Program-made: the position numbers and the translations under genes | Assembly (NCBI GenBank): GCA_037576195.1 | Contig: CM075103.1 | Coordinates: 32,138,723-32,202,722, forward strand | Reading direction: 5' to 3' | Length of the DNA: 64,000 nucleotides | Origin: Phytoseiulus persimilis | Lineage: Eukaryota > Arthropoda > Arachnida > Mesostigmata > Phytoseiidae | Shown: piece by piece, positions 738 through 63,347 of the stretch | Layout of the letters: every line of letters starts with the position of its first letter | Position numbering within the stretch: the stretch's first letter is position 1 | Notes under the pieces: model-generated | Told to the model about the DNA's origin: nothing | Database searches by the model: none | What the model saw: only the letters and a program-made list of their open reading frames with translations

Positions 738-3700
738 TGCACTAGTGGTCGACGACCACAAACGCAAGCTCCGACAAGAGGACACCCCGCTAGAGGCCGC
801 GGACGGGGCCGAGGTCGTGGTCATCCGGCTAAGAAGCATTCCTAACACCTTGGAAGCCGCACCCAGAGAGAAGCAGAATCGAGCAAGAGGAAACTTCGAA
901 TCGGGTGGCGGCAACAAGTGTGGAAGGGCGGAGCCTCTGGGTAGAGAGCCAGCCCGAATAACACGGAGAAAACGCCCAAAGAGAGTCAGGAAGGGAAGAA
1001 CGCCCGAGAGTGATGTCTCAATAAAAATCGGAATATTAAATATCAATGGGTGTACTAATTCCAAATGGGCTCAATTAGAACTAGACATGCTCGAGAATGA
1101 GGATATCAATATAGTTCTGATCCAGGAAACACATCTAGCAAACCTACAAACGCCACCGAAAATCCAAGGTTTCGAATGGCTGGGAAGCAACAGAAACGTG
1201 GCAGCAGCAAAAACTGCCACCGGAGGAGCAGGCATCCTACTCAGCTCCATTCTCGACCAAGAATGGATCGAGAAGGGAAGAGATTGGATAGCTGTAGCGA
1301 CTAGATGTGAAGAGAAACGAGTCATTCTGGTCTCAATATACGTAGCACACGAGAACAAAGATGAGAATGAAAAACTCTATGAGGAGCTGTCGAATCTGAT
1401 CAGGACCAAATGTACGATAACAGACGTTGTCCTGATCGGAGGAGATATGAACGGGCATATCCAGCAATATGATGGGAAATCAGATATGCGAGGAAAATTG
1501 CTCGAAAGCTTTGCAAGGGAAAACGATCTGATCATATTAAATGGATCGGAGAAATGCAATGGTACATATACCAGGAAATCAGCGGTAATTGACTATGTGT
1601 TGGCAAATCAACTGGCAGGTGAGACTGTCCAACACATGTACATTGACGAGAAGAGACTGATAACGGATATATCTGACCACAACCTCATAATGATACAATG
1701 TGAGATGCGCGGGAAGGACAAACCCAAAACAATCCACTCCTCGGTCATAGACTCCCGAAAAGCAGCAACCATAGCCCAGAGAGGGCTGTGGGAGAAAATG
1801 CTGAAAGATGACATATCATATGATGTGCTCAAGGGAGAAATCGAATCCGCGTCGAAACGAGCCCGCCGGACTCTTAAGATGCAAGATCGCCCTATGGTTT
1901 ACTCCACGGAAATCAAACGGGAGACCAAACTGAGGAAAGAGGCTAACCGAGTATACCGCGCGGCACGAAAAGCCGGCGTAGGAGCGGAAGATGCCTTGGA
2001 TGCCTACAGAGCACACCAACAAAAGGTCAGAGAAGCGGTGGAGAGGGAGCTACGAAACAGAGAAGGAAAAACCCTCTCATTCATCCTAAACTCACCGAGA
2101 CACGAGAAGAGCAGACGCTTCTGGAGGATCGTGAATCGAAACAATCGAAGCCAACACAAGGAAGAAACATTGAGGGACGAATCCGGGAATGTAGTACCAG
2201 GACCCCACATTGTTAGCCACTTGACTCATGTGGGGAAGAAACTCTTCGGGGACACGCCGGCTAATGACGTGATCCCACCAGCGTACAGAATCAGTGAGAC
2301 CGGAATTATACTCACAGAGGCGGACATCTCGAAGGCACTGGCCAGCATGTCAAAAGCATCCGCGATGGGCCTGGACGGGACTCCAAGTGGTATACTTAAG
2401 GATTTCGATGAAGTAGGAAGGGGATACATAACCCAACTATTCAACAAGATCCTAGCTGGCAAAGAAGAAATCCCCAGAGAGTGGAAAGAAGGTAGACTCG
2501 TCATGATAGAGAAGCCAAACTCTACCAGAGGAAATCTGCTTACCTACAGACCACTCACAATCTTCCCAGTACTCTACCGGATATTCATGAAGATACTGGG
2601 ATCCAAAATCTCAGAATGGATGGAAGAGAAAAATCTGATAGGAGAGGCACAGGCCGGCTTCCGAAAGAACCGCCGAGGGGAAGACAATATCTTCATCCTC
2701 ACGAGTGCCATAGAAGTATCCAGACGACTCAAAAACGGACTGGTGTGGTGTTTCTTGGACTGCTCGGCCGCATATGACCGAGTGTGCAGAGAAACACTAT
2801 GGAAAACCCTGGAGGAACAGGGGATGAACCAAACATGGATAGGACTACTCCGAAACATCTACTCCGGCACCAGATGCAAACTGATACACGGAAAAGAGAA
2901 ATCGGAATGGGTTAATACCACAGGAGGCCTTCGACAAGGTTGTCCTGCCAGCCCAATCCTATTCCTCCTATACATCGCTTCCCTGGAAACTCGACTACAG
3001 AACAGTGGACTAGGCTTCCGGGTGAAGAAAAAAGGAGACTTCTGGAATGTGCGAGAGAAGAAATACTCCAACATAGCCGCTCTCCTTTTTGCCGATGACC
3101 TCATATTAATGGGAAGAGACTTCTCAGAAATGGAAAGACTGTTGGAAATCACCTCACAGTTCGGCGATGAAAAGAAACTAACATTCAATCCCTCAAAAAG
3201 TGCGATTGTGGTATTCTCCAAGGGCGGAACAGCACAGGAGAGACCCCTCACAATCCAAGGGAAGACAATACCTTGCGACACGCACTATAAATACCTGGGA
3301 ATAACTATTTCGAACTCTGAGAACTACCTAGATCGCCAGGAAACCATCTGGATAGAAAAATCCCAGAGAGTCCAAAACCAATTGAGAGCGAGAGCCTTAT
3401 GGGGATTCAATCGATTTGAAATCTCCAGGACTCTATGGAAAGCGGTAGCAGTTCCATCGCTCACATACGCAAATGCGGTCACAGTTATGTCCAAAACTCT
3501 GCAAAAGAAAATAACAACAGCCCAAACGGAGGCGGGGAGGTACGCTCTTGGTATCCCCAACAGTAGAGTGGCAAACGAATTCGTCACAGGAGAACTGGGC
3601 TGGTCTTCGTTCGAGGCGAGAGAAGCCCAGAGCAAGACAAGATATTTCACCAGAATTAAGTCCATGCCTGACCATAGATGGCCGAAGGCCATACTGAACA

Positions 3701-4310
3701 TGATGGATCTAACCGGAGTCGAAACAAAAGTATATCGGAGAGAACAGGAGTTACGCCGTGTATACAAGTGCGAAGACATCACACTGACGTACACGGAACT
3801 AGGTACACCTCTACAGGGGATATTCAACAAAGCGATCAAGGAAAGGATACGCGAAACTGAAATGGCTAACTGGAGAAGCTCGATGAGATACAAAAGTAGC
3901 CTGACCCGTTACCGAACCCACACGACTGGAATGGGACATAGAAACAGTCCATACGACAACAGTCGAGGTTCGGCTCTACTGGCACTGAGCCGAGCAGGTA
4001 TGCTCAGGACCAGAGAATTCAGACAAAACTCCGAACCGGGATTAGATACCACATGCGTTAGATGTGGAGTATACCCGGAAACCCTGAGCCACGTCATCTG
4101 GGAATGAAAGGAAATATACCACGAGGAAGAGGAAACACTAAATCGACTGGGGCTCGACGAAAACCCTTCCTCAGAGATGACAGGCCACACCAAGAGACTC
4201 CTACAGCAGTGGGAGAAAGAAACTACAAATATCCGCTGAGGCAACTCGCCACTGAAACGAAAGTGTCATATATACATGAGGATAAATAATTACCAATACC
4301 AATACCAACG
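738..4310 (+). mobile_element. LINE (I/Jockey superfamily, APE-type), 5'-truncated
   Basis: This is a non-LTR retrotransposon with apurinic endonuclease, reverse transcriptase and a C-terminal zinc-knuckle region. It lacks ORF1. Its right end is the simple tail 'ataccaataccaatacc' after 'gataaataatt', the usual kind of microsatellite LINE 3' end. Relatives in the window lie at 4.56-6.27 kb, 38.6-43.8 kb and 59.6-61.1 kb. Confidence 0.85.
745..4107 (+). CDS. LINE ORF2: endonuclease + reverse transcriptase, C-terminus lost to a stop
   Basis: The 1,120-codon frame opens without an ATG because the element is 5'-truncated. The endonuclease occupies roughly residues 93-325, with LNINGC, IQETH, GGDMNGHI, IDYVL and the terminal SDHN. 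The reverse transcriptase occupies roughly residues 560-850, with TYRPLTIF, QAGFRKNRRGEDN, CSAAYDRV, GLRQGCPASP and FADD near residue 783. A Cys-x2-Cys-x7-His knuckle follows. Its last Cys position is a TGA stop at 4105-4107, after which the same frame stays open to 4240. The ORF is therefore nearly intact but misses about 44 residues. It would nick DNA and copy its own RNA at the target. No RNase H domain was seen. Confidence 0.9.
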   Translation: MVDDHKRKLRQEDTPLEAADGAEVVVIRLRSIPNTLEAAPREKQNRARGNFESGGGNKCGRAEPLGREPARITRRKRPKRVRKGRTPESDVSIKIGILNINGCTNSKWAQLELDMLENEDINIVLIQETHLANLQTPPKIQGFEWLGSNRNVAAAKTATGGAGILLSSILDQEWIEKGRDWIAVATRCEEKRVILVSIYVAHENKDENEKLYEELSNLIRTKCTITDVVLIGGDMNGHIQQYDGKSDMRGKLLESFARENDLIILNGSEKCNGTYTRKSAVIDYVLANQLAGETVQHMYIDEKRLITDISDHNLIMIQCEMRGKDKPKTIHSSVIDSRKAATIAQRGLWEKMLKDDISYDVLKGEIESASKRARRTLKMQDRPMVYSTEIKRETKLRKEANRVYRAARKAGVGAEDALDAYRAHQQKVREAVERELRNREGKTLSFILNSPRHEKSRRFWRIVNRNNRSQHKEETLRDESGNVVPGPHIVSHLTHVGKKLFGDTPANDVIPPAYRISETGIILTEADISKALASMSKASAMGLDGTPSGILKDFDEVGRGYITQLFNKILAGKEEIPREWKEGRLVMIEKPNSTRGNLLTYRPLTIFPVLYRIFMKILGSKISEWMEEKNLIGEAQAGFRKNRRGEDNIFILTSAIEVSRRLKNGLVWCFLDCSAAYDRVCRETLWKTLEEQGMNQTWIGLLRNIYSGTRCKLIHGKEKSEWVNTTGGLRQGCPASPILFLLYIASLETRLQNSGLGFRVKKKGDFWNVREKKYSNIAALLFADDLILMGRDFSEMERLLEITSQFGDEKKLTFNPSKSAIVVFSKGGTAQERPLTIQGKTIPCDTHYKYLGITISNSENYLDRQETIWIEKSQRVQNQLRARALWGFNRFEISRTLWKAVAVPSLTYANAVTVMSKTLQKKITTAQTEAGRYALGIPNSRVANEFVTGELGWSSFEAREAQSKTRYFTRIKSMPDHRWPKAILNMMDLTGVETKVYRREQELRRVYKCEDITLTYTELGTPLQGIFNKAIKERIRETEMANWRSSMRYKSSLTRYRTHTTGMGHRNSPYDNSRGSALLALSRAGMLRTREFRQNSEPGLDTTCVRCGVYPETLSHVIWE

Positions 4311-4559: not shown

Positions 4560-6275
4560 CTGATTAGTTCTTTCAGGGACCATGGATTGGATTGAGGAAA
4601 ACTTCGACAGGCTCTGGAAAACTCAACACTGATCTGATGATCAAAAATAATGAAGCGAAAAGATGCGTCTCTTCAAGAGCTTTCGATCGAAAAAAAATTC
4701 CCACATCGGATAAAATTTGACCGAAATACAGCCCAAAACAGAAAGGCCACGAAAATGTTGCAGCTTAGAGGACACACCCTGTACTCCTCAAACAAGACGA
4801 GAATCATCGAGCGAGGAATCGAATCACAATGGGTCACCAACGACAAAGGGCTGAAGCCGGGACGCCCCCGTCGAGCTTCCTGTTCACACTCTACATAGCG
4901 GACCTAGGAAACAGACCACGGAAGACAGGAGCAGGGATTCTAGTCCGAACAAAAAAAATGGCAATGGAATCTGAAGAAAGGAAAGACCCTAAGAATACCA
5001 TGCCTTTTCTTCGCCGACGACATCGTACTGATGGCGACGAGCAAAAAGGAAATGCAAACTCTCCCCGAGATAAGAAGTATCATCCGGGGACGAGAGAGAC
5101 ATTTCCTCCAACCCAATAAAGAGTGCCATAGTCATATACGCAGCGAGTGGAGAATCAAACTGCGAAGGACTGCGGGTATAAGGGAACCAAGTGCCCGTGG
5201 GCAACGAATACAAATTTCTGGGGATCCAAATGTCTAACTCAAAAAACTACCTGGCAAAACAGGGATCCATTTGGGAGAGACAGGCAACGCATTCATTGAA
5301 CCGAATGCACGCAACTTCCATATGGGGACTCAATGGATTCGAAGTCTCCAGAGCGAAATGGGGAGCGACCGCAGTTCCACATCTAACCTACGCGAATTCG
5401 GTCCTGGTTACCTCAGGGAAGCTGCTAGCAGCGCTAGAAAAGAGGCAACGAGAAGCGGGCAGATGGGCCCTAGGCATCCCTACCACCAAAGTCGCAGACG
5501 AATTCATCACTGGTGAGCTCGGCTGGTCCTCGTTCGAAGCGAGAGACGCGCATAGAAAAATCAGATACATGAACAGAATTGCGGTCATGGATATAGAAAG
5601 GTGGCCAAGAGCCGTTCTGAACATGATTTCCATTGTGGGCATCTATACCAAAGCGTGGAACAGACCTGAACTTCTGAAAGAGAGGTATAACTGCGGAAAT
5701 ATCGAAGTTAGATTTACAGGAAGGGAAGAACCATGCATGAACGTCTTTAATTCTCAGATAAGAAAGAGGATTGGAGAAACACAGGAGATCAACTGGAAGC
5801 GAGATATGTCGCGGAAACCAAGTCTGGAATTCTACCGGCAAGGCAAAACGAGCCTTCCTCTGCGGGAACCGAAGAGGCGACGCTCTCCAGGCCTTGGCAA
5901 GATCGGGTAAACTACCGAGACCACGCCATGGGAAGCAGAATCCACACAATAATAACAACAGCAATATCAATGGCGGTGAAAATGAAAACAGATACATCTT
6001 CCATCGATGCGGTGTGTATGAAGAAACCGTGAAATGCGTGATCTATGAATGCAACGACGCATACTACACGGATGAGAATTCCCCCCTCAGACTGGGCCTC
6101 CAGGAGGAAATGAGAGACCCCTAAATCGTGATACGAACGAAACGAATCCTAGAAAAAGTGGGAGAAAGAGACCTGCGATCAGCTGCAAAGCTCCTGACAC
6201 GAAAGGAAGAATGGTGAAGGATGTAGCATAGACACACTAAACCGAATCTGGATTGATAAATACCATATCATTCAT
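4560..6275 (+). pseudogene. Decayed second copy of the same LINE family (RT to 3' end)
   Basis: The best-preserved frame, 5191-5910, parallels the first LINE from the RT thumb onward: YKFLGIQMSNSKNYL, WGLNGFEVSRA, AGRWALGIP and GELGWSSFEARDA. Upstream, pieces of the RT palm (GLKPGRP, LFTLYIADL) occur in shifted frames between 4760 and 5050. The copy ends near 'gataaataccatatcattc'. Several frameshifts make it dead. Confidence 0.8.
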
Positions 6276-6499
6276 TCAGCACCGCGCTGCCGATCGGATC
6301 GGCTCGGACTGCCAAGTTCGCGGAATCATCCGCCCCAGCCCGGTTATTCATCTGACCAGCCAGTCCGAATAATCATTGGCCCTAGTCTGATGGTCGGGAA
6401 AGTAACTTTCCGTTAGGAGAGACCCTGCTGAGGGATTTCGCACCGATTTAGCCCCGATTCCGACTGAGTAGCCGAGACCGACAGCGAGTTTACCGCGAG

Positions 6500-7490
6500 C
6501 TAACGTTTGTTCATGCGATTCAAGGAGCGCCACAACATCAAGATTCAGGGGGAGTGCACTTTCTCCGATCATGCGGCAGCTGCGTAATTCCCGGAGACCC
6601 TCAACGAGGTCATCAGGGAAAAAGGATTGCTGCCGAATCAAATTTTCTATGTCGAAGAAACCGCGTTGTTTTGGAAGAAGATGCCAAATCACTCCTATAT
6701 CGCTCAAGAGGAGAAAACAATGCCTGTCTTCAAATGCTCCAAGGATCGTATGATAGTCTTGCTCGGCGAGAACTGTTCTGGGAACTCTAAACTAAAGCCC
6801 TTTCTGATATATCGATCTGAGAATCCCAGAACTCTCAGGAGAATCCCCAGAGCAAGTCTACCCGTGGTGTAGAAATCGAATCGAAAAGCCTGGATGACCG
6901 TTTCAGTCTTCGACAACTGGTTCACCAACCATTTCGTCTCAGCAACGAGGGATCATTGCGCGGAGCTGAAGATTCCTCCCAAAATTTTACTGTTATCAAA
7001 CAATGCTGCCGGACATCCAAAGAGCGTCGACGATTTGCAATCAGAGGTGACCGTCGTTTGCTTACCACCGAACACGACTGCTCTCATTCAGCCGAAGGAC
7101 ACGTGATCGCTAATTTCAACAGATACTATCTACGATCAACCTTCAGACAAGCGGTGGGAGCTCATGGTTCAGAGGAGAAAGTCACTGTGCGTGAATTCTG
7201 CAGAACTATGACGTATACAAGGCCGTCTACAACGTGGGTCGAGCTTGGAACGAGGAATCGAAGCAGTGTCTCAAAATGTCCTGGAGTCAGATATTCCCTC
7301 AATTCGATGTGACGAGCAGCCTTATCAAGAACCCATCCGCGATTTGGTCCGGATGAGTGAGTATCTCCAGCTGCGACTAGATGAGGACGATTTCATTGAT
7401 CTTTTGGGCACCAATGAAGAGCTCCCCTCTGATGGGGAGTTGATGAATTTCCGTTACGACGCAATCGAAAGCGAAGCGAGTGCTGGTGAA
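6500..7490 (+). pseudogene. Tigger/pogo-type (Tc1-mariner superfamily) transposase, dead
   Basis: Read through its frame changes, the region follows the DDE_1 transposase order: FKERHNIKIQGE near 6515, ALFWKKMPN near 6660, KLKPFLIYRSENPR near 6790, KAWMTVSVFDNWF near 6885, LPPNTTALIQPKD near 7060 and VIANFNRYYLR near 7105. An acidic tail (EYLQLRLDEDDFIDLLG) ends the protein near 7480. Breaks are TAA near 6569, TAG at 6870, a 1-bp loss near 7103 and another shift near 7200. Two catalytic aspartates are also gone: the usual ADET is VEET and the usual LDNA is SNNA. No terminal repeats were found. Confidence 0.85.
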
Positions 7491-7581
7491 TCAGAGAGTG
7501 AGCGACGGGACTTCCGCATGGATAAGACGCGGGAAGGATTTTTCCCCATCGCTCGAGCGCTGCTATCCTCTATTCGAGGAT

Positions 7582-10500
7582 ATGGACCCTGAGCCGCAAC
7601 GTTTCACGGAGATGATGGGCATGATTAAGGACGCCCTGACACCTCATCACGCTATTCTAGAAAAGGAAGTGAGGCAGACCAAACAAACCAAGGTCAAGAG
7701 CATGTTTGTCCCAGACAGGGAAGCTTTGAATGAAAATCGACGAGGCTTAGCTTCGGAGGAAAGTAGGGACCAGATTCTCAAAGGGTTACGTCCAGAGTAT
7801 AGATTCTTGATTCACGAAATGCGCGGAAGGGTGCATAAAACGACGGCGGACTTAATTAGAGATATTAACCGGAGTATGGACATCGAGCGAGAAGTCAGGG
7901 GGGAACGTTTGCCGCCAGCGGACCGACGGGAAACGAGGCCCGGAGCAGGAGTGACTTGCTACATTTGTCGGAGGGAAGGACACAAGCAGATGAACTGCCC
8001 GGACAGAAGGGAGCGTCGCGCGGTAGAAGGATACCCGAGTCGACCACCGAGGTCGGATTCGTTCGGAGTATCACCGAGAGGAAATTCCGGAGATTGGCGA
8101 AGACAACCGACGGACGATTCGAGACAGCGCGGCAGGTACGACACGAGAGGCCAACCAGGCCCATCAGGAGGTGGACATCGCGAACTGACGTGGAGAGAGA
8201 CAGCAACACCGGGACCCGGACCAATCGTTTGTGGTCGATGCAATTTAACTGGTCACCACGCGAGGGAATGCAGACGAGCTCGCCGAATAACAGCGACAGG
8301 AGATCACGAAGGGCGGACACTGCCAGAAGTCGAAGAACCTGCACCAGAAGTTTGCCAGATCCTAGATGGACTTGCGGGAGTCGAAACTGAAGAGGAAGAC
8401 AGGGGAAGCAAAACTGTCCGAGTTAATGGAATCGAATGGCAAGCGAGAGTGGACACCGAAGCGCAGCTGAGCGTCATTCCTCAGAGTGCGGCGGAGGCTC
8501 TCAACTTGAAGATCAGCCCAGGAACAGTTCGACGAGTTCGAGGAGTAGGCGGAGGTTGCAACACGCTAGGTCAAGCGATAGCAAGTCTAGCGGTGGACGG
8601 CATCGAGGCGAAGGAGGTAACGTTGACGGTCTTGCCGAACGAGGCGATGGAAGGAGAAGAAATTCTGATAGGGGAGGATTTCCTAGACGATCCAGGGTTG
8701 GCGACCGTATATCGTAGGGGAATGGCCTGGGTGGTAGAAGAACGAGCGATCGAAGACATCGCCAAGCTGCTGCCCCAACAAGGGAAGAAGGTGAAGCTGA
8801 AGCTACAGGAGGAAGTGACTCTGGAACCGAGAACAGTGTCATTCGTGACCACCACTCCGATCGATGGCGATACGGTGAGGAGTGAAGGGATGATAGGTGT
8901 CGGAGACCACAGGGAAGTCACCGAATTCGGAGCCCTGTACGAACTACAGGAGGGAGGCCTGACAGTTCCAGTTGCAAACCCGGGAGAATACGAGCTCATC
9001 TTGAAGCCAGGGACAATCGTTGCGAGAGGAACCTTAGTGGACGAAGGAGATCTTTTCAGGCTGAAGAAGAAGGCAGGCAAGGGCAAAGGAGCCACCATCG
9101 GACAAATAACAACCAACAAACCAACGGAGAAGAATTGGATCAAGGAAAGTGAGATAGACGTCGGACCCGCACTGCCGGAGGCCGTGCAGGATAGGTTGGT
9201 GACGATGGTCAACAAATATCGGGAGGTTGTCGCGACATCGATGGTAGAACTAGGTCGCACGTCATGGGCCGAATTTGACATCAACGAAGTGGAAAGAAGT
9301 CAGCCGGTCCGAGCCAAGCCATATCGTTTGGCGGCACCGAAGAAGGAAGCGCTCGAAGAAATCATCAAGAAGATGAGGGATGCAGACATGATCGCACCAT
9401 CGCAGTCACCGTACGCGAGTCCGGTTCTGCTCGTCAAGAAGGCGGACGGAAGTTGGAGGATGGTCATCGACTATCGGAAGCTGAATGCACAGACGGTGCG
9501 ACTGAATTTTCCTTTACCGCTCATCGACGAGATCCTAGACGAGATAGGAGGCAGGGAGATGTACTCGACATTCGATTTGGCGTGGGGATTCTTCCAAATC
9601 CCAATGAAAAAGAAGGCGGCGGAGAAAGCGGCATTCTTGACACCAGGAGGTCACTTTGAACCGAAGGTGATGATGATGGGACTCTGCAACGCACCAGCAG
9701 CATTTCAAAAATTGATGATGAGGGTCAGGGATAGAATCAGGTCCCGGCAGACATTTCCATTCTTGGATGACCTGATTACAGCATCAGACCTCTACAACGA
9801 TCATCTTGACGGGATCGAGGAGATTTTCATAGCGCTGAAGGCACCGGGGCTAACGATTAGATTGAACGAATGCGAATTCTTTAGGACATCGGTACAATTT
9901 CTTGGATTCACAGTGGCGAAGGATGGAATCAAGCCAGGAACTCAAAAGCTCGGGGCGGTCTGGAAGTTCAAGCAACCGAAGGACGTTCACGCCATGAGAA
10001 GATTCCTTGCGCTGACATCGTTCTCCAGAAGGTTCGTGAAGGATTACGCAACTATAGCATGTCCGCTGACGGAGTTGCTGAGAGAGGAAGCGAAGTTCGA
10101 GTGGACGAAGGATTGCGAAGAGGCGTTCGCGAAGCTGAAGGCGTCGCTGACAGGAGCATCGTTGGCTCGTTTCGAAAGAGGGAGACCAACTCAACTACAC
10201 ACAGATGCTTCACTTGTCGGCCTTGGCGCAATACTGATGCAGGAAGCCGAAGGGAAGTGGAGAATGGTCTACGCAATAAGCAGGAAGCTTTCGAACACAG
10301 AGCGAAATTATCATTCGACGAAGTTGGAACAACTTGCAGTAGTCTGGGCAATGGAGAGTTCCCGGCACTACTCGCTGGGGATCCCGTTCGTTGTGGTGAG
10401 CGACTGTGTAGCGGTCTCAGCCCTGAAGGCAAAAGGAGGATCCGCACAACTGAACCGTTGGCTCAGCCGAATCGCGGAGTTCACGTTCGAAGTCAAACAT

Positions 10501-12213
10501 CGACCAGGGACAGGCATGGCGCACGTGGATGCTTTGTCACGAGAACCGCATGAAGAAGCTCAAGAAACGGAAGACGTAGACTTACCAACAATTAACATGG
10601 TACGAGCCGAAGAAGATCAGTTTCGAGCGGTGCAAGCAACGGAGAAGGACATCCAGAGAAGGATGAAGATTTTGGCAAAAGAGGAGCAAGACAGAACAAT
10701 CCAAGAAAGAGCATTCATTGGAGGAGGATTCATTTTGCATCAAGGACTTCTATACAAGGAAATGGAAGGCCGAAGGCTGTACGTGGTTCCGAAGATACTG
10801 AGGAAATACATATTGGTGCTGAATCACGACAAAGCTGGACACTTTGGAATGGAAAAGACGATGGAGTTGCTCAAGAGGAGATATTGGTTCCCGAAAATGG
10901 AGAAGTATACGAAGTTTCATCTGCGAGCGTGCGTAGATTGCATCTACAACAAGGAGAAAAGTGGCAAGGCAGAAAGCCTCACGAACATCATTCGATCGGA
11001 GAGACGACCATTTGAGAAGGTTTTCATAGATCACCTTGGACCACTGATAAAGTCAAATAAGAAGGAACACATCATAGCGTTGGTCGACGGATTCACGAAA
11101 CTCGTTCTTCTGGGAGCAGTGTCTAGCACTAAGACAAAAGAAGTGATCAAGTTCTTGAAGGATTTCTTCACAGTGTATGGCAAGCCAGCGAGAATCGTCT
11201 CAGACAGAGGATCGGCATTCACATCGAAGGATTTCGAGGAACTGCTGAGGGAAAATGGAATCACTCACGTCGAAATTAGCACACAACATGCATGTGCGAA
11301 CGGTCAGGTGGAGCGCCTGAACAAGGAGATAGCTAGGTTGTTGAGATCCTTGTGTGAAAAGGAGGATCACAGCGATTGGTCATACAAGCTGAAGGACGCG
11401 CAGATGTGGCTGAACACAACCATGTCTAGGAGCTTAGGGAAATCCCCATTCGAGGTGTTACATGGATATTTGCCGCGAATGAATAATCATGAGCAAGGGT
11501 TTGAGGGGGCTCAGGAAAAGCTTTGGACACCCGCGGAGGAAGTTCAGAACGGAATTAGGGGAGTTCTCAGGAAGAGTCAGGAACGGTATAAGTACTATAG
11601 TGACTTGCGGAAGAGAATACACGTTCGCTTCAACGTAGGGGATGTCGTTTTCGTGAAACGGTTGCCAGTGCCAACGGGTCAGCCAACCAAACTTCAGCGA
11701 AAGTTCAGGGGTCCCATGACCATAACCAAAGTCCTAGCCAAGGATTCGTACGAATTGATGGAGCTTGGAGCGAATCAAAACTACGTTTGCACAGCTCATA
11801 GTTCACAGTTGAAGTGGTTCAAACCTCACAACGAGGAAGACATCGAGGAAGATGAGGAAGACACAGAAGAGGAGGCGCAGAAGGACGTCAACACAGGAGT
11901 CTCCAACGATATCTTGAACGAGAGCGACACGCAGCCCATGGATTGGTCTTCTGTCATGACACCAAGGACACCGATGCGATTCGAAGGAGGATACCGAGAC
12001 AGGTCACAGTTGTCATCGGAAGGAGATTCATCAGCAAATTCAGTGCAAGTGGAAGCGGACATTCAGACAACACAGCATGGAGAACCCAGGAGAACGGTAG
12101 ATCTAGATTCAGCGATTATAGAGTCTCCTGGCGAGGATAGAGTAGAACCTCAACGTAGGCAGCAACCTTCTAGGCAGGTCAAGTTTGGACCCGGGTTCAG
12201 ATACTCTAAGTAG
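7582..12213 (+). CDS. Gypsy gag-pol polyprotein (gag truncated)
   Basis: From the first in-frame ATG, 1,543 codons are uninterrupted. Two CCHC knuckles lie near residues 126 (CYICRREGHKQMNC) and 217 (CGRCNLTGHHAREC). The protease near 291 reads VDTEAQLSV, with Glu where retropepsins have Gly, followed by EILIGEDFL. The RT has FLDD at about 727, a variant of YxDD. RNase H follows with HTDAS near 873 and ALSREP at its end. Integrase has an HHCC finger near 1083-1115 and the triad IDHLGPL, SDRGSAF and GQVERLNKE. A GPY/F-type module (KFRGPMTITKV) and an acidic tail close the protein. Gag is only about 250 residues, so the capsid N-terminus is missing. Such proteins assemble particles, copy the RNA and integrate the cDNA. 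Confidence 0.92.
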   Translation: MDPEPQRFTEMMGMIKDALTPHHAILEKEVRQTKQTKVKSMFVPDREALNENRRGLASEESRDQILKGLRPEYRFLIHEMRGRVHKTTADLIRDINRSMDIEREVRGERLPPADRRETRPGAGVTCYICRREGHKQMNCPDRRERRAVEGYPSRPPRSDSFGVSPRGNSGDWRRQPTDDSRQRGRYDTRGQPGPSGGGHRELTWRETATPGPGPIVCGRCNLTGHHARECRRARRITATGDHEGRTLPEVEEPAPEVCQILDGLAGVETEEEDRGSKTVRVNGIEWQARVDTEAQLSVIPQSAAEALNLKISPGTVRRVRGVGGGCNTLGQAIASLAVDGIEAKEVTLTVLPNEAMEGEEILIGEDFLDDPGLATVYRRGMAWVVEERAIEDIAKLLPQQGKKVKLKLQEEVTLEPRTVSFVTTTPIDGDTVRSEGMIGVGDHREVTEFGALYELQEGGLTVPVANPGEYELILKPGTIVARGTLVDEGDLFRLKKKAGKGKGATIGQITTNKPTEKNWIKESEIDVGPALPEAVQDRLVTMVNKYREVVATSMVELGRTSWAEFDINEVERSQPVRAKPYRLAAPKKEALEEIIKKMRDADMIAPSQSPYASPVLLVKKADGSWRMVIDYRKLNAQTVRLNFPLPLIDEILDEIGGREMYSTFDLAWGFFQIPMKKKAAEKAAFLTPGGHFEPKVMMMGLCNAPAAFQKLMMRVRDRIRSRQTFPFLDDLITASDLYNDHLDGIEEIFIALKAPGLTIRLNECEFFRTSVQFLGFTVAKDGIKPGTQKLGAVWKFKQPKDVHAMRRFLALTSFSRRFVKDYATIACPLTELLREEAKFEWTKDCEEAFAKLKASLTGASLARFERGRPTQLHTDASLVGLGAILMQEAEGKWRMVYAISRKLSNTERNYHSTKLEQLAVVWAMESSRHYSLGIPFVVVSDCVAVSALKAKGGSAQLNRWLSRIAEFTFEVKHRPGTGMAHVDALSREPHEEAQETEDVDLPTINMVRAEEDQFRAVQATEKDIQRRMKILAKEEQDRTIQERAFIGGGFILHQGLLYKEMEGRRLYVVPKILRKYILVLNHDKAGHFGMEKTMELLKRRYWFPKMEKYTKFHLRACVDCIYNKEKSGKAESLTNIIRSERRPFEKVFIDHLGPLIKSNKKEHIIALVDGFTKLVLLGAVSSTKTKEVIKFLKDFFTVYGKPARIVSDRGSAFTSKDFEELLRENGITHVEISTQHACANGQVERLNKEIARLLRSLCEKEDHSDWSYKLKDAQMWLNTTMSRSLGKSPFEVLHGYLPRMNNHEQGFEGAQEKLWTPAEEVQNGIRGVLRKSQERYKYYSDLRKRIHVRFNVGDVVFVKRLPVPTGQPTKLQRKFRGPMTITKVLAKDSYELMELGANQNYVCTAHSSQLKWFKPHNEEDIEEDEEDTEEEAQKDVNTGVSNDILNESDTQPMDWSSVMTPRTPMRFEGGYRDRSQLSSEGDSSANSVQVEADIQTTQHGEPRRTVDLDSAIIESPGEDRVEPQRRQQPSRQVKFGPGFRYSK

Positions 12214-12451
12214 TTCTGTTGAGGACAACAGCGTAGGTAGGTGTGCCGAGCGATTAGGTATGAAGTAAACAATCAGGAAAATCAGCTGGAAGAACAGCGG
12301 CAAGATTCAAATCAGGATGAAAAATCGAGGCGCAAGAGGGCGCGCAAGAAGATGGAGACCGTGACGTAAGAGGGCGCAACGATCAATCTCGAGCTTCATC
12401 TTGGAAGGAGAAGTCCAGAGAAATCGCGCAATCGAGGCGCTGGCCACAGGG

Positions 12452-13024
12452 ATGACCTTTCCCTGCCGACATGAGGAGTTTGGGTGCGTAGAGCGGCCCG
12501 AGTGGCAACAGAAGGCGTCGCACGATCGGGAGTGCCGGATGAGAGGGACGGAGTGCCCGCTCCGCGAAGATGAGTGTCGTTGGCGAGGACCCAGCACGGA
12601 GGTCGGAGCACACGCCCAACCACGACACAGGTGCAGCATGATCCAGGCGGACGCGCAGACGGAGTTCTCAATGTGTAGGATGAGCCGGCCAAACTACGAG
12701 GCCAGATGGATCTGGACCCAACATGAGGAGTGGGTGGTGCTTGGAATCCTGGTGGAGGCTACGTTCGACCTGGAGCCGCAGTTGGTTCTGAGCCTGGTGG
12801 TGATAGGAACGGAGGAGCGAGCGTCAGCGTTCCGAGGGCGCATTTCAGTCATGACGGCCCAAACGCAACTGATTTGGGAAGGGACGCCGTTGAGCTCCGA
12901 TGTCGAGGTTCGGGAGGCGATCCATGCCGGGAGCGGCTTCTACATCGACGGGCGAGCGATGATACGACTCGACCGAGAGGGAACAATCCGCATCGCGGCG
13001 TCAATCGAACGGAGTCATCAATAA
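12452..13024 (+). CDS. SIAH/Seven-in-absentia-like protein without RING, carried by the gypsy element
   Basis: The first ATG gives 190 codons; the frame is open from 12365. The double zinc finger is C-x6-C-x11-H-x3-C-x6-C-x6-C-x11-H-x4-H, the same spacing as animal SIAH proteins with every ligand present. The lead-in RNRAIEALATG before the first finger also resembles SIAH. The C-terminal part (GTEERASAFRGR, LIWEGTPLSS, AIHAGSGFYIDG, IRIAASI) follows the SIAH TRAF-like substrate-binding core. The RING that recruits E2 enzymes is absent: 12214-12400 has no cysteine cluster. SIAH proteins pick ubiquitin-ligase substrates, so a RING-less form could bind substrates or dimerise without ubiquitinating. 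That role is inference. The ORF sits between pol (188 bp upstream) and the 3' LTR, has no signal peptide or membrane segment, and is unbroken. Homology is assigned by motif only. Confidence 0.82.
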   Translation: MTFPCRHEEFGCVERPEWQQKASHDRECRMRGTECPLREDECRWRGPSTEVGAHAQPRHRCSMIQADAQTEFSMCRMSRPNYEARWIWTQHEEWVVLGILVEATFDLEPQLVLSLVVIGTEERASAFRGRISVMTAQTQLIWEGTPLSSDVEVREAIHAGSGFYIDGRAMIRLDREGTIRIAASIERSHQ

Positions 13025-13142
13025 AACCATTGTGATAGGTTAGCGTACGCTCGCGCACAACTAGAGTCATTATCCAGATAGTTGATTTCTTCTAGGGTTA
13101 GCATTTGCCAGGAGGCGTAACGACTAGGGTAGCATGGTCGAA

Positions 13143-13433
13143 TGTAACAGCCAGTTGGATTCTTGAGGAGAGCTAGCTAGAATGTTCTCTGGAGATGCAA
13201 GTCGGAGGCGGCAATGCCGGCGGATCGACATGAGAAAGGGAAGCGGCGTTGACGAGAGAAGCCGCCAGTAGCTAGAAGAAGAGAGTAGAGAGTGCCGTGA
13301 ACGGTGTGAAGGACCGTGGCTGCCTATCGAGGAGCCGGTCGAGAAGAAGTGAAATAAAGAGAAGTTGAACTATAAGTGCACTGTTCCTCTTCCCTGAGTG
13401 AATCCAGGTATAGGTCCCTATCGGCCTGTTACA
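13143..13433 (+). repeat. 3' LTR of the gypsy element (291 bp)
   Basis: It begins TGTAACAG and ends CTGTTACA, a perfect 8-bp terminal inverted repeat. It carries AATAAA near 13352. The first 233 bp recur at 63115-63347. No strong polypurine tract is seen just upstream, and the lack of a 5' LTR prevents a TSD check. Confidence 0.9.
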
Positions 13434-13778
13434 CGTGTCATCTCAACTCGAGATTGCGAGTTGGATAGGAATTGGCATCCAACAGTTCATTTCATGCGGT
13501 TCATTCGAATTTTACATATTTTTCACCGAAATGCAGTTCGTTGAGACGCAAATACTCTGGAACTGAATGACTCAACTAAAGAACTACCGCTGTGTCGGTA
13601 CTAGCTCATAACAATCGCCCACTTCCCGAGCAACCCGTTCTCTCGCACCGATTCGCAAGCGAATGGAACAGTTATTTGTGCCAATTTTCCAGATTCTGAA
13701 GGGGGTAGACAATTGAATGCCGCAGACTCTTTCACGCTTGTCAGAACAACACCAAAATCTGATACAAGACTTCACCGT
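13434..13778. other. Unassigned spacer
   Basis: No coding, repeat or RNA signal was recognised between the gypsy LTR and the inverted repeat. Confidence 0.5.
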
Positions 13779-14773
13779 AAAGGGTCTCGGCCATCGGCCC
13801 CGCGGATTTTGCACTACTCCAGACAAAACTTGGTCAACTTAAAAGGCTCATATCTCGGCTCCCAGATGGGTTTTGGAAAGCTGAAAAAGAGAGCTACCGG
13901 ATAGCATACATGCCGTTAGGATCGAAGATGGACGAATACCTTTAAAATCTATGAATTCAAGACCGATGCGAAAATAGATAGCGTCGAGTGCGCACTCTGG
14001 AGTTTAGCTGAATCGAAAGGTCACTGAGAGTCGAAGGTTGTGCAAAAAAAAATCCAAAAAAAAGAGGCGTTTTTTTTTCGCCGAATTTTTTTTTCACCTC
14101 GGACTCTCCCTCCCCCCCCTCGCGGAAAAAAAACGCCCGTGATGGTTCCGGCGAAGTAAGTGATCTTTATTCGTCGGCATCGCTCTCTTCTGAGCCTGTC
14201 TCTCCCTATGAGGGTATGAAGAGATCGGTCAAGGCTTCCGCTGGGCGCAGAAGTGATGGCAAGATTCTCAGAAACAATGTTTGTGGCTTCTGGTCTCGGG
14301 ATTCGACTCCCTGCGCCGATGGATGCATTTGCTTCCAGCCGTTGCTCCCGGGCGATGAGCTATGCGCAGGTGCTCGAGCCTAACATGTATGCATGTTTTG
14401 AGCTCCGACTTCATCACTAGAGAGCTCAGGGAGGTCAGGGGCCAAAAAAAATCGGAGGGCCGACCGAAGGAAAAAATATTTTCGGCGAAAAAAAAGCGTC
14501 TCTTTTTTTTTTAAATTTTTTTTTGCAAAACCTTCGACTCTCAGTGACCTTTCAATTCAGCTCAACTCCAGAGTGCGCACTCGACGCTATCTATTTTCGC
14601 ATCGGTCTCGAATTCATCGATTTTAAAGGTATTCGTCCATTCTTCAGCTTTCCAAAAATAACTCGATCGGCGCTGTAACCCATCTGGGAGCCGAGATATG
14701 AGCCTTTTAAGTTGACCAAGTTTTGTCTGGAGTAGTGCAAAATCCGCGGGGCCACTAATGGCCGAGACCCTTT
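13779..14773. mobile_element. Foldback/MITE-like element with ~310-bp inverted arms
   Basis: The left arm from 13779 (aaagggtctcggcc...) is the reverse complement of the right arm ending at 14773 (...ggccgagaccctttt-like). The match runs through 'actccagacaaaacttggtc', 'aggctcatatctcggctccc' and 'aaaatagatagcgtcgagtg', with about 90% identity and a few indels. The arms end in poly-A/poly-T tracts near 14045-14095 and 14475-14530. The centre of about 400 bp has no ORF. No target-site duplication was found. Transcription through it would make a long hairpin RNA. Confidence 0.8.
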
Positions 14774-25759: not shown

Positions 25760-26545
25760 CGACACTTCCGGTCCGCCACTGTTCGCCGTGGCGAGCGTCG
25801 CCGCTGTGTGTTTTCCAGTCCTTCGCCGCGGCGCACACCTCTGATCCTGACCGCTGAGCCGGCGGTCCGTCCAGCCTGAGACATGGCTGGCAGGATTCGA
25901 GGCCGCCCTGCGACTGACGGTCGTTCGGTTTGACAAGGTTGAAAAATATGAATTATGGTTGCGCACCTCGAGCGGATACAGCAACTGGATGGGACGCCGC
26001 AAGCGCTTGCCCTCAGTGGTGCGGATCCAACACGATCGTTGCCGACGGTCGGTTCCCTCTTCGCTGTGGAGCGACTCCACCACGCAAAGCGGCCAGTAGG
26101 CCCTGGAGGAGTCGGCCGAGTGCAGAAGGCACACGTCTCCGGCTCGGAGCGGGCGGTCGCGCGCGGGGGTGGCGGAGTGGTTGGAGCGCAAGTGTGGGAG
26201 GTATTCGACGTGGAATGTTGTCCAGAATACGCGGAGCATTGATTGTTGCCGGCGCCATCTCTCGGAGAAGACGATCGCCGTCGCCCACTCTGCCTCCTTG
26301 ACGATTTGCTTCGAGTCTGGGAGTCCTGCCTGCGAACTGTAGCTGCAGAGGAGATTGGCCGGGGACAGGGCACTAGGCTCGTTGGCGTCCGAGATGAGTG
26401 CCGAGATCGGCCTGTCGTTGACGACCTTCTCTATCTCAGTTAGGACGGTCTCCAGTTCCCGGAACCGAAGCGCATGGGTGCCGAGGATCTCCCTCAAAGG
26501 TCATTCGACCATTTGCTAGCAGCGCTCGAAGAAACCGTTCGGAAA
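25760..26545 (-). pseudogene. BEL/Pao integrase C-terminal part
   Basis: The minus frame reads LREILGTHALRFRELETVL, VVNDRPISAL, ERWRRQQSMLRVFW, RAGDVCLLHSADSSRAYWPL and RRPIQLLYPLEV. It tracks the BEL element at 31.1-31.9 kb but is clearly a different subfamily. Upstream codons carry two stops near 26510-26525, and the copy ends where a dispersed repeat starts. Only the last third of pol is left. Confidence 0.82.
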
Positions 26546-31008: not shown

Positions 31009-33411
31009 ATTGTAATATGTTTTTTTGTTATTTTGAATGTATATTTTTTCGCTGAACGATCGCCTTTTCATTCTATACCAGAACGTTTCTTCCGCCCACG
31101 GCCGTAGCTCGCCCGGTAAGACCTCCAGTGGGAATAGTAGCCGTATTGGTCGGTTTAGCGTTTGGCCTGTGGCCGTCTTGATTAGGCAGGATCGCTTGCG
31201 TCGATCCGTTCTCTCCCCGCCGGAAAGACCGAGAACGCGACACAGCGGCCAGTGTGCTCTCGACGGACTTGCGTCCCTCAGGAGGCAAACGTCGCCTACC
31301 GCTATCGGTCTGCGATCCTCCGGTGGCCGAATGTGCGCGGAACGTAGGTGAGACAGATATTCTCCCCGGAATCGTTTCCACAGCGCGCGCAGAACCGACT
31401 GCTGATGTTCCCAACGCTTCGAGTAAACTATTGAGGTTGCCGCTTCGCGGTCGTTCGCCTTTATCTTTGTTTCCGGGAGACCCTGTTTGGCTCTGTAGCC
31501 GTAGAGGAGATCCGCTGGGCAGAGAGCGCCAACTTCGTTGAGATCGCCCTGGACTGCCGTGAGCGGTCTCTGGTTGACCATCGCCTCCACTTCTGCCAAG
31601 ATTGTTTCTAGCTCCCGGAACGGCAACGAGTTCCTACCTAAGATCTTCCTAAGTGGTCTTTTTACGCACTGCACCAAACGCTCCCACCATCCGCCCTGCC
31701 AGGGGGCCCTGGCTGTGATAAATTCCCATTCTGTTTCTGCGGAAGCTAGGTGGTGCTGAACGGCTGGCGACTTGACGTGCTCGAAGATGATCTTCAGCTC
31801 CTTGGCTGCTCTAACGAATGCGAGCCCGTTGTCGGACATGATTCTGGTGGTTCCGCTGAATCGGCTCAAGAATTTTCTCAATGCCAGCAAGAATTTGTAT
31901 GCCGACAGGTCTGGGACCAATTGCAGCTGGACTGCTCTCGTATTCGAGCACACGAATAGCAGTATGTAGGACTTGGCGAGATCTCCGCTTGGGAGTCGAT
32001 AGCTGATCGGTCCCGCGTGATCTACTCCGCAAACCGTGAATGGAGGGGCTGTTGACAGCCTGAAACTCGGAATCGGGGGCGCTGGCTCCGCTGCCGCCTC
32101 GATCCGGAACAACATGCAAACTTTACAGTCTCTGAGGACTGCTTTGACTGCCTTGCGCGCCGCGAGAATGAAATACTTCTTCCTCAACATGGTCAATGTT
32201 GCCGCGACTCCGCCCACGTGGAAACATTTTTTCTCGTGGAAAAACCTGATGAGCAATCTAACGGCGTGCGCTTCCCCTTGAAGCACGATTGGGTACTTTT
32301 CATCGTATCCCCACTCCTCGCCGCGTTCCAATCTGGAACGACACCTAATTAATCCCTCGGCATCCAGGAACGGTGCCAATTTGAACAGCTTGCTTTCTTC
32401 CTGGATTTCCTTACAGGCTGACTCCAGCTCTGCCCTAAACTGGCTTTTTTGGAGACTTTGGATTACTTTGACTGTTGCTCTCCATGCCTCGGTTGCTGAA
32501 ACCGGAGCATCCCGCGGGGATTGTCTCGCTGGCGAGTATCGGCTTGAAAGCCACCTGAGGATTCGCGCCGTGGAGTTGACCAGCACGCTCCAAGATGATA
32601 ATCGGGAGCCATCCAATATTGACTGATTTTGCTCTACCGTCAACATGCTGACCGCTTTCCTTTCTGACTCTATTTCGCTTTCGAAGAACTTGTTCAGTGA
32701 GTGCTTCTCTGTTGGCCGCCCTTCCTCTGCTAGCCAACTCGGCCCTTTAAGCCACATGGAACTGTATTCCTCTGACGCGATGTTTGCTCCGCGACTCAAC
32801 AGGTCGGCTGGATTCTGCGCGGAGGTGACGTAGTCCCACTCCGGCGCCGCTGTCAGGGATTGAATTTCTCTCACTCTATTTGCCACGAAAACTTTCAATC
32901 TGTCTGGCGACTCTTTGATCCAGTGTAGCGTCGGGGAGTTGTCGGACCAGTAATGGGACGATTCGAAATGATAATTGAGATACTGCTTGATCCTCGACCC
33001 CATTCTGGCCGCCATGACTGCCCCGACTAGCTCTAACTTATGGATCGAGTAGGTCGACTTTATTGGAACTACTCTCGCCTTTGAGGCGACGAAAAAGATC
33101 TGCGCGGCGCCGCGTTTCGACATCTCTCTGACGTACGCCACACATCCGAGTGCCGACAGGCTCGCGTCGCAGAACACGTGCAGTTCTCGGGTGACGTCGC
33201 GCTCGTTTGTGTTTATGTTTCGTTGTATGCGGAATTCCCGTGCGTGTTTGAGCGCGTCTGTAGTTTCTAAGAATTCTCTGCGAGTGTCTCCTGTCAGTTC
33301 TGTGTTCCAATCGAGTTTTTGCTTCCAGCACGTTTGTAGCAGTATTCTCGGTCTGACTGTGAGCGGAGAAATGAGACCGAGAGGATCGTAAATCTGTGCT
33401 GTGCCTTTCAA
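30841..33411 (-). CDS. BEL pol, RNase H and integrase part
   Basis: The frame opens after an in-frame TAA at 33478-33480 and carries AQIYDPLGLISPL, RNase H (HVFCDASLSALG), an integrase zinc finger (HEKKCFHVGG to DCKVC), and the catalytic core with CGVDHAGPI, MSDNGLAF and the Glu of the WEF-to-GGWWERL segment. It ends with RPIRLLFPLEV near 31115. The last 90 residues, RMKRRSFSEK onward, are Arg-rich and outside the family's usual end. Integrase would insert the cDNA. Confidence 0.85.
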   Translation of the reverse strand: MKGTAQIYDPLGLISPLTVRPRILLQTCWKQKLDWNTELTGDTRREFLETTDALKHAREFRIQRNINTNERDVTRELHVFCDASLSALGCVAYVREMSKRGAAQIFFVASKARVVPIKSTYSIHKLELVGAVMAARMGSRIKQYLNYHFESSHYWSDNSPTLHWIKESPDRLKVFVANRVREIQSLTAAPEWDYVTSAQNPADLLSRGANIASEEYSSMWLKGPSWLAEEGRPTEKHSLNKFFESEIESERKAVSMLTVEQNQSILDGSRLSSWSVLVNSTARILRWLSSRYSPARQSPRDAPVSATEAWRATVKVIQSLQKSQFRAELESACKEIQEESKLFKLAPFLDAEGLIRCRSRLERGEEWGYDEKYPIVLQGEAHAVRLLIRFFHEKKCFHVGGVAATLTMLRKKYFILAARKAVKAVLRDCKVCMLFRIEAAAEPAPPIPSFRLSTAPPFTVCGVDHAGPISYRLPSGDLAKSYILLFVCSNTRAVQLQLVPDLSAYKFLLALRKFLSRFSGTTRIMSDNGLAFVRAAKELKIIFEHVKSPAVQHHLASAETEWEFITARAPWQGGWWERLVQCVKRPLRKILGRNSLPFRELETILAEVEAMVNQRPLTAVQGDLNEVGALCPADLLYGYRAKQGLPETKIKANDREAATSIVYSKRWEHQQSVLRALWKRFRGEYLSHLRSAHIRPPEDRRPIAVGDVCLLRDASPSRAHWPLCRVLGLSGGERTDRRKRSCLIKTATGQTLNRPIRLLFPLEVLPGELRPWAEETFWYRMKRRSFSEKIYIQNNKKTYYNLHERREVAMAPEAHLIRVGLRLRVTHRRRGGRRVPGTPGGRLGRGVGFALPRLKR

Positions 33412-46800: not shown

Positions 46801-47630
46801 AATCTGAGCATTACTTCCCAACCCTAGAAGGGTGATTCCGGGACCAGTCTGAGCATTACTTCCCAACTCTGGAGGGGTGATTCCGAGTCCAATCTGAGCA
46901 TTACTTCCCAACCCTAGAAGGGTGATTCCGGGACCAGTCTGAGCATTACTTCCCAACTCTGGAGGGGTGATTCCGAGTCCAATCTGAGCATTACTTCCCA
47001 ACTCTGGAGGGATGATTCCGAGACCAATCTGGCTATTATTCTCCAACGCTGTAGGGGTGATTCTGGGACCAATCTGGCCATTACTTTCCAACTCTGGAGG
47101 GGTGATTGCGACACCAATCTGGCCATTACTCTCCTACCCTGGAAGAGTGATTTCAGGACCAATCTGACAATATTCTTCCGAGTCTGGAGGGGTGCTTCCG
47201 AGTCGAATCTGACCGTACTTTTCAAAACCTGGAGGGATGATTCCGTCTCCAATCTGACCATTACTTTCCGAGTTTGGAGGAGTGATTCCGAGACCAATAT
47301 GGCCATTACTTTGCAACTCCGGAGGGGTGATTCCGGGACCAATAAGGCCATTACTTTCCAACTCTGGAGGGGTGATTACGAGACCAATCTGGCCGTACTT
47401 TCCAAAACCTGGAGGGGTGATTCCGTCTCCAATCTGACCATTACTTCCCGAGTTTTGAGGAGTGGTCCTGGAACCAATCTGGCCATAACCCAGTGAAGAG
47501 AGGGAAAAGGGCCTCGATCCCAGATCAGAATCCTATCGAGAATCGGTGGCCACTCCCGAAGGTGTCCCGATGACACCACATACTGTCAGCAGTAGACTCC
47601 CGAAGCAAGGGACGGGCCAGCCAGCGTAGT
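43849..47630 (+). mobile_element. Non-autonomous Helitron filled by a minisatellite
   Basis: The 5' end tctatatatataaaaatcc follows an A, then gtttgtttgtatgtatg. The sequence after it (cggtattgatcggatcgac ... ggacataggccacccacccc) has the wording of widespread insect Helitron 5' ends. The 3' side reads gggacgggccagccagcg then TAGT. The homologous end at 54987 keeps the full ccggctag, i.e. CTAG next to T, the Helitron terminus. No Rep/helicase is encoded. At this copy about 9 bp of the 3' terminal hairpin are missing. Confidence 0.8.
44205..47490 (-). repeat. 45-bp minisatellite array, about 73 units
   Basis: The unit (as read on the plus strand: ttccaactctggaggggtga, ttccgagaccaatctggcc, attact) repeats with an exact 45-bp step from 44.2 to 47.5 kb; units in the centre are nearly identical and those at both edges more varied. 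Because 45 is 15 codons, frames of up to 813 codons stay open on both strands. One extra base near 44664 shifts the frame. Confidence 0.95.
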
Positions 47631-63114: not shown

Positions 63115-63347
63115 TGTAACAGCCAGTGGGATTGTGGAGGAGAGCTAGCTGGAATGTTCTCTGGAGATGCATGTCGGAAGCGGCAATGCCGGCGGATCGA
63201 CATAGGAAAGGGAAGCGGCGTTGACGAGAGAAGCCGCAAGTAGCTAGAAGCAGAGAGTAGAGAGAGCCGTAAACGGCGCGAAGAACCGTGGCTGCCTATC
63301 GAGGAGCCGGTCGAGAAGGAGTGAAATGAAGGGAAGTTGAACTACAG
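63115..63347 (+). repeat. Truncated gypsy LTR (first 233 bp)
   Basis: It matches 13143-13375 from TGTAACAG through 'gaagttgaacta' with about 93% identity, then diverges, so the last ~58 bp are missing. AATAAA has become AATGAA here. Confidence 0.88.

Follow-up and report, generated by a model that had tools for sequence, protein, structure and literature searches.

A Ty3/gypsy retrotransposon family of Phytoseiulus persimilis whose third open reading frame probably encodes a SIAH-type ubiquitin ligase

A SIAH-like frame between pol and the 3' LTR

Why does an open frame resembling the SIAH ubiquitin ligases lie between the pol gene and the 3' LTR of a gypsy retrotransposon, and how much of such a protein does the element encode? 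An earlier note, made from the letters of the DNA alone, had described the frame as RING-less, with only the substrate-binding part of a captured host gene kept. We analysed the window (the whole stretch of 64,000 nucleotides) together with the genome from which it comes (181 Mb, 127 contigs). As described, the frame is open from stop to stop over 219 codons plus the stop, with pol upstream and an LTR downstream (Table 1). The zinc-finger spacing reported for it, C-x6-C-x11-H-x3-C-x6-C-x6-C-x11-H-x4-H, is exact at residues 34-88; a scan of the window in all six frames found it once, and none of 20,000 shuffled ORF sequences contained it. Pfam searches support the assignment to the SIAH families, Sina_ZnF (E 9.4e-15) and Sina_TRAF both scoring above their cut-offs, the latter barely, and a phmmer search of the PDB aligned residues 26-188 with SIAH1 (4c9z, E 1.7e-12). 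A chance zinc-finger pattern is ruled out by the Pfam scores and the shuffles. The earliest methionine of the frame is residue 30 (position 12452).

Table 1. Features of the element copy in the window and a second LTR fragment of the same family.
Feature	Position	Strand	Basis
Ty3/gypsy element copy (family A), 5'-truncated: part of gag, pol, ORF3 remnant, 3' LTR	7743..13433	+	blastn against the C2:13281484 copy; LTR search
pol frame: PR, RT, RNase H, integrase H2C2 + rve; matches the sister copy only from 7743 on	7480..12213	+	ORF list, Pfam, blastn
ORF3 remnant: SIAH zinc finger and TRAF-like core, N-terminal half deleted	12365..13024	+	Pfam, PDB phmmer, pattern
Deletion scar TTGGAAGGAG, 10-bp repeat, site of 638-bp loss	12401..12410	+	comparison with the C2 copy
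SIAH zinc finger (PF21361)	12440..12646	+	55.2 bits, cut-off 32
SIAH TRAF-like core (PF03145)	12767..12955	+	25.4 bits, cut-off 24.8; PDB SIAH1 alignment to residue 188
3' LTR, 291 bp, TGTAACAG...CTGTTACA	13143..13433	+	LTR search
Second LTR of family A, fragment, 92% identical over 230 bp	63115..63344	+	LTR search

The pol gene of the window has the PR-RT-RH-IN domain order of Ty3/gypsy elements by Pfam; 17 of the 120 matches listed for it had a named organism (11 arthropods, 6 plants or algae), and the best match listed reached 60%. Searching the genome with the ORF gave at least 32 protein matches, and searching with the LTR region at least 40 (40 scored of 50 candidates). Five sister copies made up our set of LTR pairs, with pairs such as C1:8773450/8776715 outside it. 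All five pairs examined are flanked by 4-bp target duplications (catg, tatc, cgtc, gagg and aagg), and their LTRs are identical at 292/293, 289/293, 282/290, 285/290 and 289/293 ungapped columns (97.2-99.7%). The LTRs end in TG...CA, with deviations: one 3' LTR has two additional bases at its start (TGTCGAACAG), and the end of one 5' LTR reads CTGCTACA. SIAH-ORF sequence lies directly before the 3' LTR in all five copies, two of which (C4:8451907 and C3:23233213) are short and internally deleted; the element at C2:13281484-13288566 measures 7083 bp from LTR to LTR. A one-off insertion of the ORF is ruled out by these five independent two-LTR insertions that carry it. The SIAH ORF belongs to the gypsy element itself, which we call family A, as had been proposed. 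An older relative of family A, now damaged, is present about 34 kb past the end of the window in two nearly identical copies separated by about 9 kb (C3:32236355-32250200).

Compared with the C2:13281484 copy, ORF3 of the window copy lacks 638 bp between two 10-bp repeats (TTGGAAGGAG), and this gap removes the start codon (ATG) and, with it, zinc knuckle, acidic repeats and RING. By Pfam and by the comparison with the sister copy, the window copy has no RING. When window positions 5001-14000 were aligned by blastn with the same copy, the match started at 7743 and continued to the 3' LTR; since it starts only there, this copy lacks its 5' LTR and the beginning of gag. The LTR search found no 5' LTR for it. 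The changes unique to it (5 synonymous, 9 replacement) are compatible with neutrality (p 0.32) and barely different from the 17 and 7 of the young copies (Fisher p 0.047). The window copy is a dead, 5'-truncated deletion derivative of family A and no purpose-built stripped-down form.

Domains and selection in ORF3

In three sister copies (L007, L008 and L009) the frame extends upstream into a RING, CPICLEVAGPPVLQCINGHGVCSQCRARLDRC(A/G)QC, so that the description of the ORF as RING-less, with only a substrate-binding part kept, does not hold for the family. Sina_RING matched all three at 45.5-45.9 bits (cut-off 29.3; E 6.3e-12 to 8.2e-12), and Sina_ZnF matched them at E 1.2e-13 to 1.1e-15; all four sister frames scored 51.7-59.4 bits for Sina_ZnF (cut-off 32). 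The spacing of the RING ligands equals that of the host SIAH in these three of the four family-A frames tested; in the fourth, L010, which is damaged by one TAG, the exact pattern is absent. Another copy, L006, retains half a RING (20.2 bits). Altogether, ten family-A loci match half or more of the RING (68-100% identity), with the exact pattern in three of the four tested.

The ORF3 of L009 is intact. It comprises 395 codons (C2:13286944-13288128), starts at an ATG 263 nt past the pol stop and lies in an element with LTRs identical at 292 of 293 positions, the most alike of the five pairs. Its predicted domains follow in the order knuckle, acidic repeats, RING, SIAH finger and SIAH core. The CCHC knuckle reads CFLCRRVGHFGRLC and scores 14.2 bits for zf-CCHC, under the cut-off of 20.8, and the acidic repeats read TTEEDEDVVR. 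Among PDB entries, the protein matched 9g0l, the RING-ZnF1 part of SIAH1 (E 1.1e-18), as well as the SIAH1 core (E 3.7e-12). For the core, the Sina_TRAF scores of L007 (24.1 bits), L009 (23.6) and L006 (24.5) are just under the cut-off of 24.8, compared with 25.4 for the window copy, and Pfam gave no TRAF match in L008, which is cut by a stop; the family-A core aligns gap-free to the last host SIAH exon. L008 is damaged by a frameshift and a stop, and L007 is open through the RING and the whole core, without the knuckle. No envelope family was among the Pfam matches of ORF3.

Structure prediction upheld the resemblance to SIAH1 for the RING and first finger and left it weak for the core. The AlphaFold2 model of ORF3 is confident only for the RING and zinc finger (pLDDT 86-90 at residues 141-230, RING plus first finger); the core is poor, at pLDDT 47-57, dropping to 24-33 at the tail. 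A second model, of the zinc finger and core alone, had a mean pLDDT of 47.2 and was left out of the conclusions. Foldseek aligned the ORF3 model with 9g0l at an rmsd of 2.0 and a TM score of 0.78 by target; SIAH2 and SIAH1 cores were also matched, with a best E of 9e-8, yet at an rmsd of 5.0-8.3 and a TM score of 0.43-0.52 by target. By its predicted domains, ORF3 of family A is a full SIAH-type protein, RING included. It shares with SIAH1/2 and the host SIAH the order of RING, zinc finger and, in ORF3, a putative TRAF-like core, together with the host RING spacing and, as predicted, the RING-ZnF1 fold. It differs from the host SIAH in being one uninterrupted frame, 33% identical over RING plus zinc finger, with two extra residues between RING and finger, and from SIAH/SINA proteins generally in adding an N-terminal CCHC knuckle and acidic repeats and in being encoded by a retrotransposon. 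An open frame at C2:7013500-7014800 (L087) holds three CCHC-like knuckles and by eye resembles the N-terminus of ORF3; several similar loci were matched. Such a frame is a possible source of the knuckle part.

The earlier note had taken the intact ligands as a sign of selection, a view that stood for the family and failed for the window copy. Over RING, zinc finger and TRAF, dN/dS was 0.06-0.23 in all six pairs of the young copies L006-L009. From RING to core these copies vary at 23 synonymous, 8 replacement and 2 stop sites, which against a neutral replacement share of 0.71-0.75 gives p 1.2e-8 to 2.4e-7 (kappa 1-3); these are simple counts on few copies with shared ancestry and possible gene conversion. 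The RING alone (L007-L009) has 9 synonymous, 2 replacement and 1 stop sites (p 1.7e-4 to 6.2e-4). These results show that the RING-to-core codons of family A are under purifying selection. L010, in opposite orientation, stands outside the main pairwise table and was counted in a separate comparison. Pairs of the window copy with the others gave 0.20-0.48 from RING to core, and its unique changes look neutral. Values for single parts were as follows: for TRAF alone, 0.64 for the pair L006-L008 (1 synonymous, 2 replacement) and 0.65 for L013 or L014 against the copies at C3:32.24 Mb; for the knuckle, 0.45 (L009-L008), 1.24 (L023-L021) and 1.11 (L016-L025); for the pol tail, 1.65 (L009-L007; 1 and 6); and for the core tail, 0.68 (L009-L007) and 2.28 (L016-L025; 1 and 7).

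Forms lacking the ligase domains are also present. Four loci (L015, L016, L017 and L025) have one common junction, at which the knuckle part (to about residue 80) is joined in frame to the last 71 residues of the core, without the RING, the zinc finger and half of the core; L025 carries an additional stop and frameshift. Since four loci share one junction, this ligase-less form has spread. At L017 (C1:8773986, minus strand) a 953-codon open frame by eye joins reverse-transcriptase-type sequence directly to the knuckle-core-tail ORF3. RING-lacking forms have thus been amplified, and the ligase part, selected where it is present, is dispensable for copying, at least if it can be supplied in trans.

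What the ORF3 protein may do

SIAH proteins recruit an E2 through the RING and pick the substrate through the core. On this evidence, we consider it likely that ORF3 of family A is a SIAH-type RING E3 ubiquitin ligase placed behind a nucleocapsid-like CCHC knuckle and an acidic repeat linker; it would then probably be an element-encoded ligase tethered to the element's RNP. In such a protein, the knuckle would hold the ligase at the element RNA or Gag particles, the RING would recruit a host E2, and the SIAH core would select the protein to be ubiquitinated, either one of the host's restriction or silencing factors or one of the element's own, for instance Gag.

The ligase may be directed at the element's own particle and not serve as a weapon against the host: held there by its knuckle, it would ubiquitinate Gag or Pol and so act in assembly, turnover or ESCRT-type release. 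We regard this as a credible alternative, if short of probable. The nucleocapsid-like knuckle sits within the same protein, and it is retained in the multi-copy derivatives without a RING, which points to a function at the RNP of the element; the SIAH core, on the other side, is a substrate reader of host type.

Related modules and known systems

SIAH-type modules recur after pol in other elements of this genome. A second lineage (B; L077, L078, L080, L081 and L082) has a related gypsy pol; the pol of L081 and that of the window are 59% identical across 536 aligned positions. A knuckle and a Sina_RING (42.0 bits) share one frame in L077; in L078, Sina_RING (45.5 bits) and Sina_ZnF (42.8 bits) fall in two different frames; L080 has a RING (39.2 bits) and a partial zinc finger whose 27.2 bits are under the cut-off; and L081 and L082 have knuckles. 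For zf-CCHC, L077 scored 22.1 and L081 30.4 bits (cut-off 20.8). None of the lineage-B loci read holds the whole module in a single open frame. Six lineage-B matches over ORF3 residues 125-174 (or 114-175) each contain one TAA, and the two of them that were read, L081 and L082, both stop in the RING; three other matches span the RING without that TAA. Like the ligase-less form of family A, the copies with this stop speak against an essential ligase.

In the third lineage (C), L079 has a 299-codon frame with knuckles, a RING under the cut-off (20.2 bits) and a Sina_ZnF match of 40.3 bits, and it stops inside the core. It comes directly after a pol tail with DUF5641 (PF18701; C3:24825281-24825553, 41.6 bits, cut-off 23.1), a domain that we take to be a mark of BEL/Pao elements; the integrase frame of L079 had no Pfam match. 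We call lineage C BEL/Pao because of DUF5641 and its appearance by eye. Further DUF5641 tails, scored against the same cut-off, lie at C2:1344770 (43.8 bits) and C1:53084689 (29.5 bits): at C1:53.08 Mb the tail is followed by knuckle, RING and zinc finger, interrupted by an insertion and stops, and at C2:1.34 Mb only tail and knuckle are found. These searches show ORFs with predicted knuckle, RING and SIAH finger, mostly damaged, downstream of pol both in another gypsy lineage and in elements that we class as BEL/Pao, with the domain order in common as far as the zinc finger.

Was the module captured once? In an unrooted tree of RING plus zinc finger (14 rows), A, B and C are grouped with modest support (0.77), beside the host SIAH and apart from the plants (0.99); the tree and likewise alignment A2 used 7 of the 8 plant matches, and L012 and the zinc-finger piece of L078 were omitted. 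In all three lineages the stretch from RING to zinc finger is two residues longer than in the host and plant proteins. Pairwise identities over the same domains are 35% (A-B), 36% (A-C), 38% (B-C), 33% (A-host), 31-35% (A-plants) and 28% (C-host), the A-B and A-C values being hardly above A-host. The donor may have been a SIAH gene of this host, as proposed, but over RING and zinc finger the element protein is equally near to plant SINA-like proteins and to the host SIAH. Close relatives of ORF3 were found neither in the protein collection, which gave only plant SINA-like proteins (8 and 4 matches; scoring was confined to the roughly 8,000 candidates with the most words in common), nor in viral contigs, where one stretch fitted a pattern and was not confirmed.

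On balance the comparison makes a single old capture, with later exchange among the elements, the likelier history. Each element type might instead have acquired its knuckle-SIAH ORF on its own, for instance from a host gene that combines the two, or the ORFs might be host genes lying beside elements. The modest support for the A, B, C group, identities barely above those to host and plant SIAH, and a further Sina_ZnF match at C1:34258082 (46.6 bits) would fit such a history, which we nevertheless find improbable: the five insertions with target duplications have the ORF3 of family A between their LTRs, the two-residue insertion is common to all three lineages, and the recognised host SIAH (C3:1397898-1399504) is an animal-type gene in four or more pieces, with no CCHC pattern in the frame tested.

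The earlier note had also suggested that a RING-less SIAH protein blocks or redirects host ubiquitination. As the state of family A, such a decoy is refuted by the sister copies with a RING; a blocking role is conceivable for derivatives only. The window frame does retain the zinc finger and core ligands, and RING-lacking forms are multi-copy. We nonetheless give the decoy very little credence, for three sister frames have a complete RING under selection, the window form is a deletion with no early methionine and with unique changes compatible with neutrality, and the multi-copy RING-lacking form of lineage A is also without the zinc finger and half the core. Captured genes can be mere passengers, and copies without the RING do amplify, but that the element picked up a host gene by chance and makes no use of it is highly unlikely, given the strong synonymous excess among young copies and the presence of related modules in three lineages from two superfamilies.

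Returning to the RNP-tethered ligase, a broader reading can be offered tentatively: a mobile module of knuckle and complete SIAH E3, common to two superfamilies, may act at the RNP of the element and ubiquitinate proteins with which the host silences or restricts it, with ligase-less elements as free-riders. It would be a counterpart of the retroviral accessory proteins that borrow host ligases.

Among the entries listed for the topic in a collection of open-licence papers there was no SIAH-bearing retrotransposon, in agreement with the earlier note, which knew of no such gypsy element. The nearest cases differ in kind. The giant planarian Burro/GYPSM1 gypsy elements are reported to have AIR1, MATH_TRAF_C, BIR, ankyrin and SUMO-like motifs, and meddling in host ubiquitination was suggested; they exceed 30 kb and carry these motifs in a giant polyprotein or accessory ORF, whereas family A measures about 7.1 kb and has a separate ORF3 (PMC6431247). 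Neither "siah" nor "ring finger" occurs in the text of that paper. In bdelloid rotifer Vesta/Juno LTR elements, a non-env ORF3 in the same position as in family A encodes other enzymes (GDSL esterase, DEDDy exonuclease), common to unrelated retroelement types; ring, ubiquitin and siah are absent from that text (PMC5408684). An orchid Ty3/gypsy element acquired, like family A, an extra enzyme ORF, which was retained through subfamily diversification; being a plant element with an RNA demethylase domain (2-ODD, m6A demethylase-like), it differs from family A (PMC9289625). Plant LTR elements with additional ORFs are described in PMC7264820, whose passages on the subject leave ubiquitin unmentioned. 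Against these cases, the predicted SIAH-type ligase as ORF3 appears new; LTR elements with non-env ORF3s (PMC5408684) and gypsy elements with ubiquitination-related motifs (PMC6431247) were already known. A compact element with a complete, selected SIAH-type ligase, and with relatives in gypsy and BEL/Pao, makes it testable whether the putative ligase acts against the host or on the element's own particles, and the amplified copies with and without it are natural, built-in comparisons.

The window holds other repeats besides. At 745-4107 there is a non-LTR retrotransposon with a 1120-codon open frame containing endonuclease and reverse transcriptase domains. DUF5641 is matched at 25973-26263 and 31129-31419 (minus strand; 50.7 and 51.4 bits), so that BEL/Pao elements are probably present in the window too. 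A satellite with a 45-bp unit occupies 44212-47486 (about 73 copies, 90% matches); since contig C1 opens with a unit that by eye resembles it (L084), this satellite may be a subtelomeric repeat.
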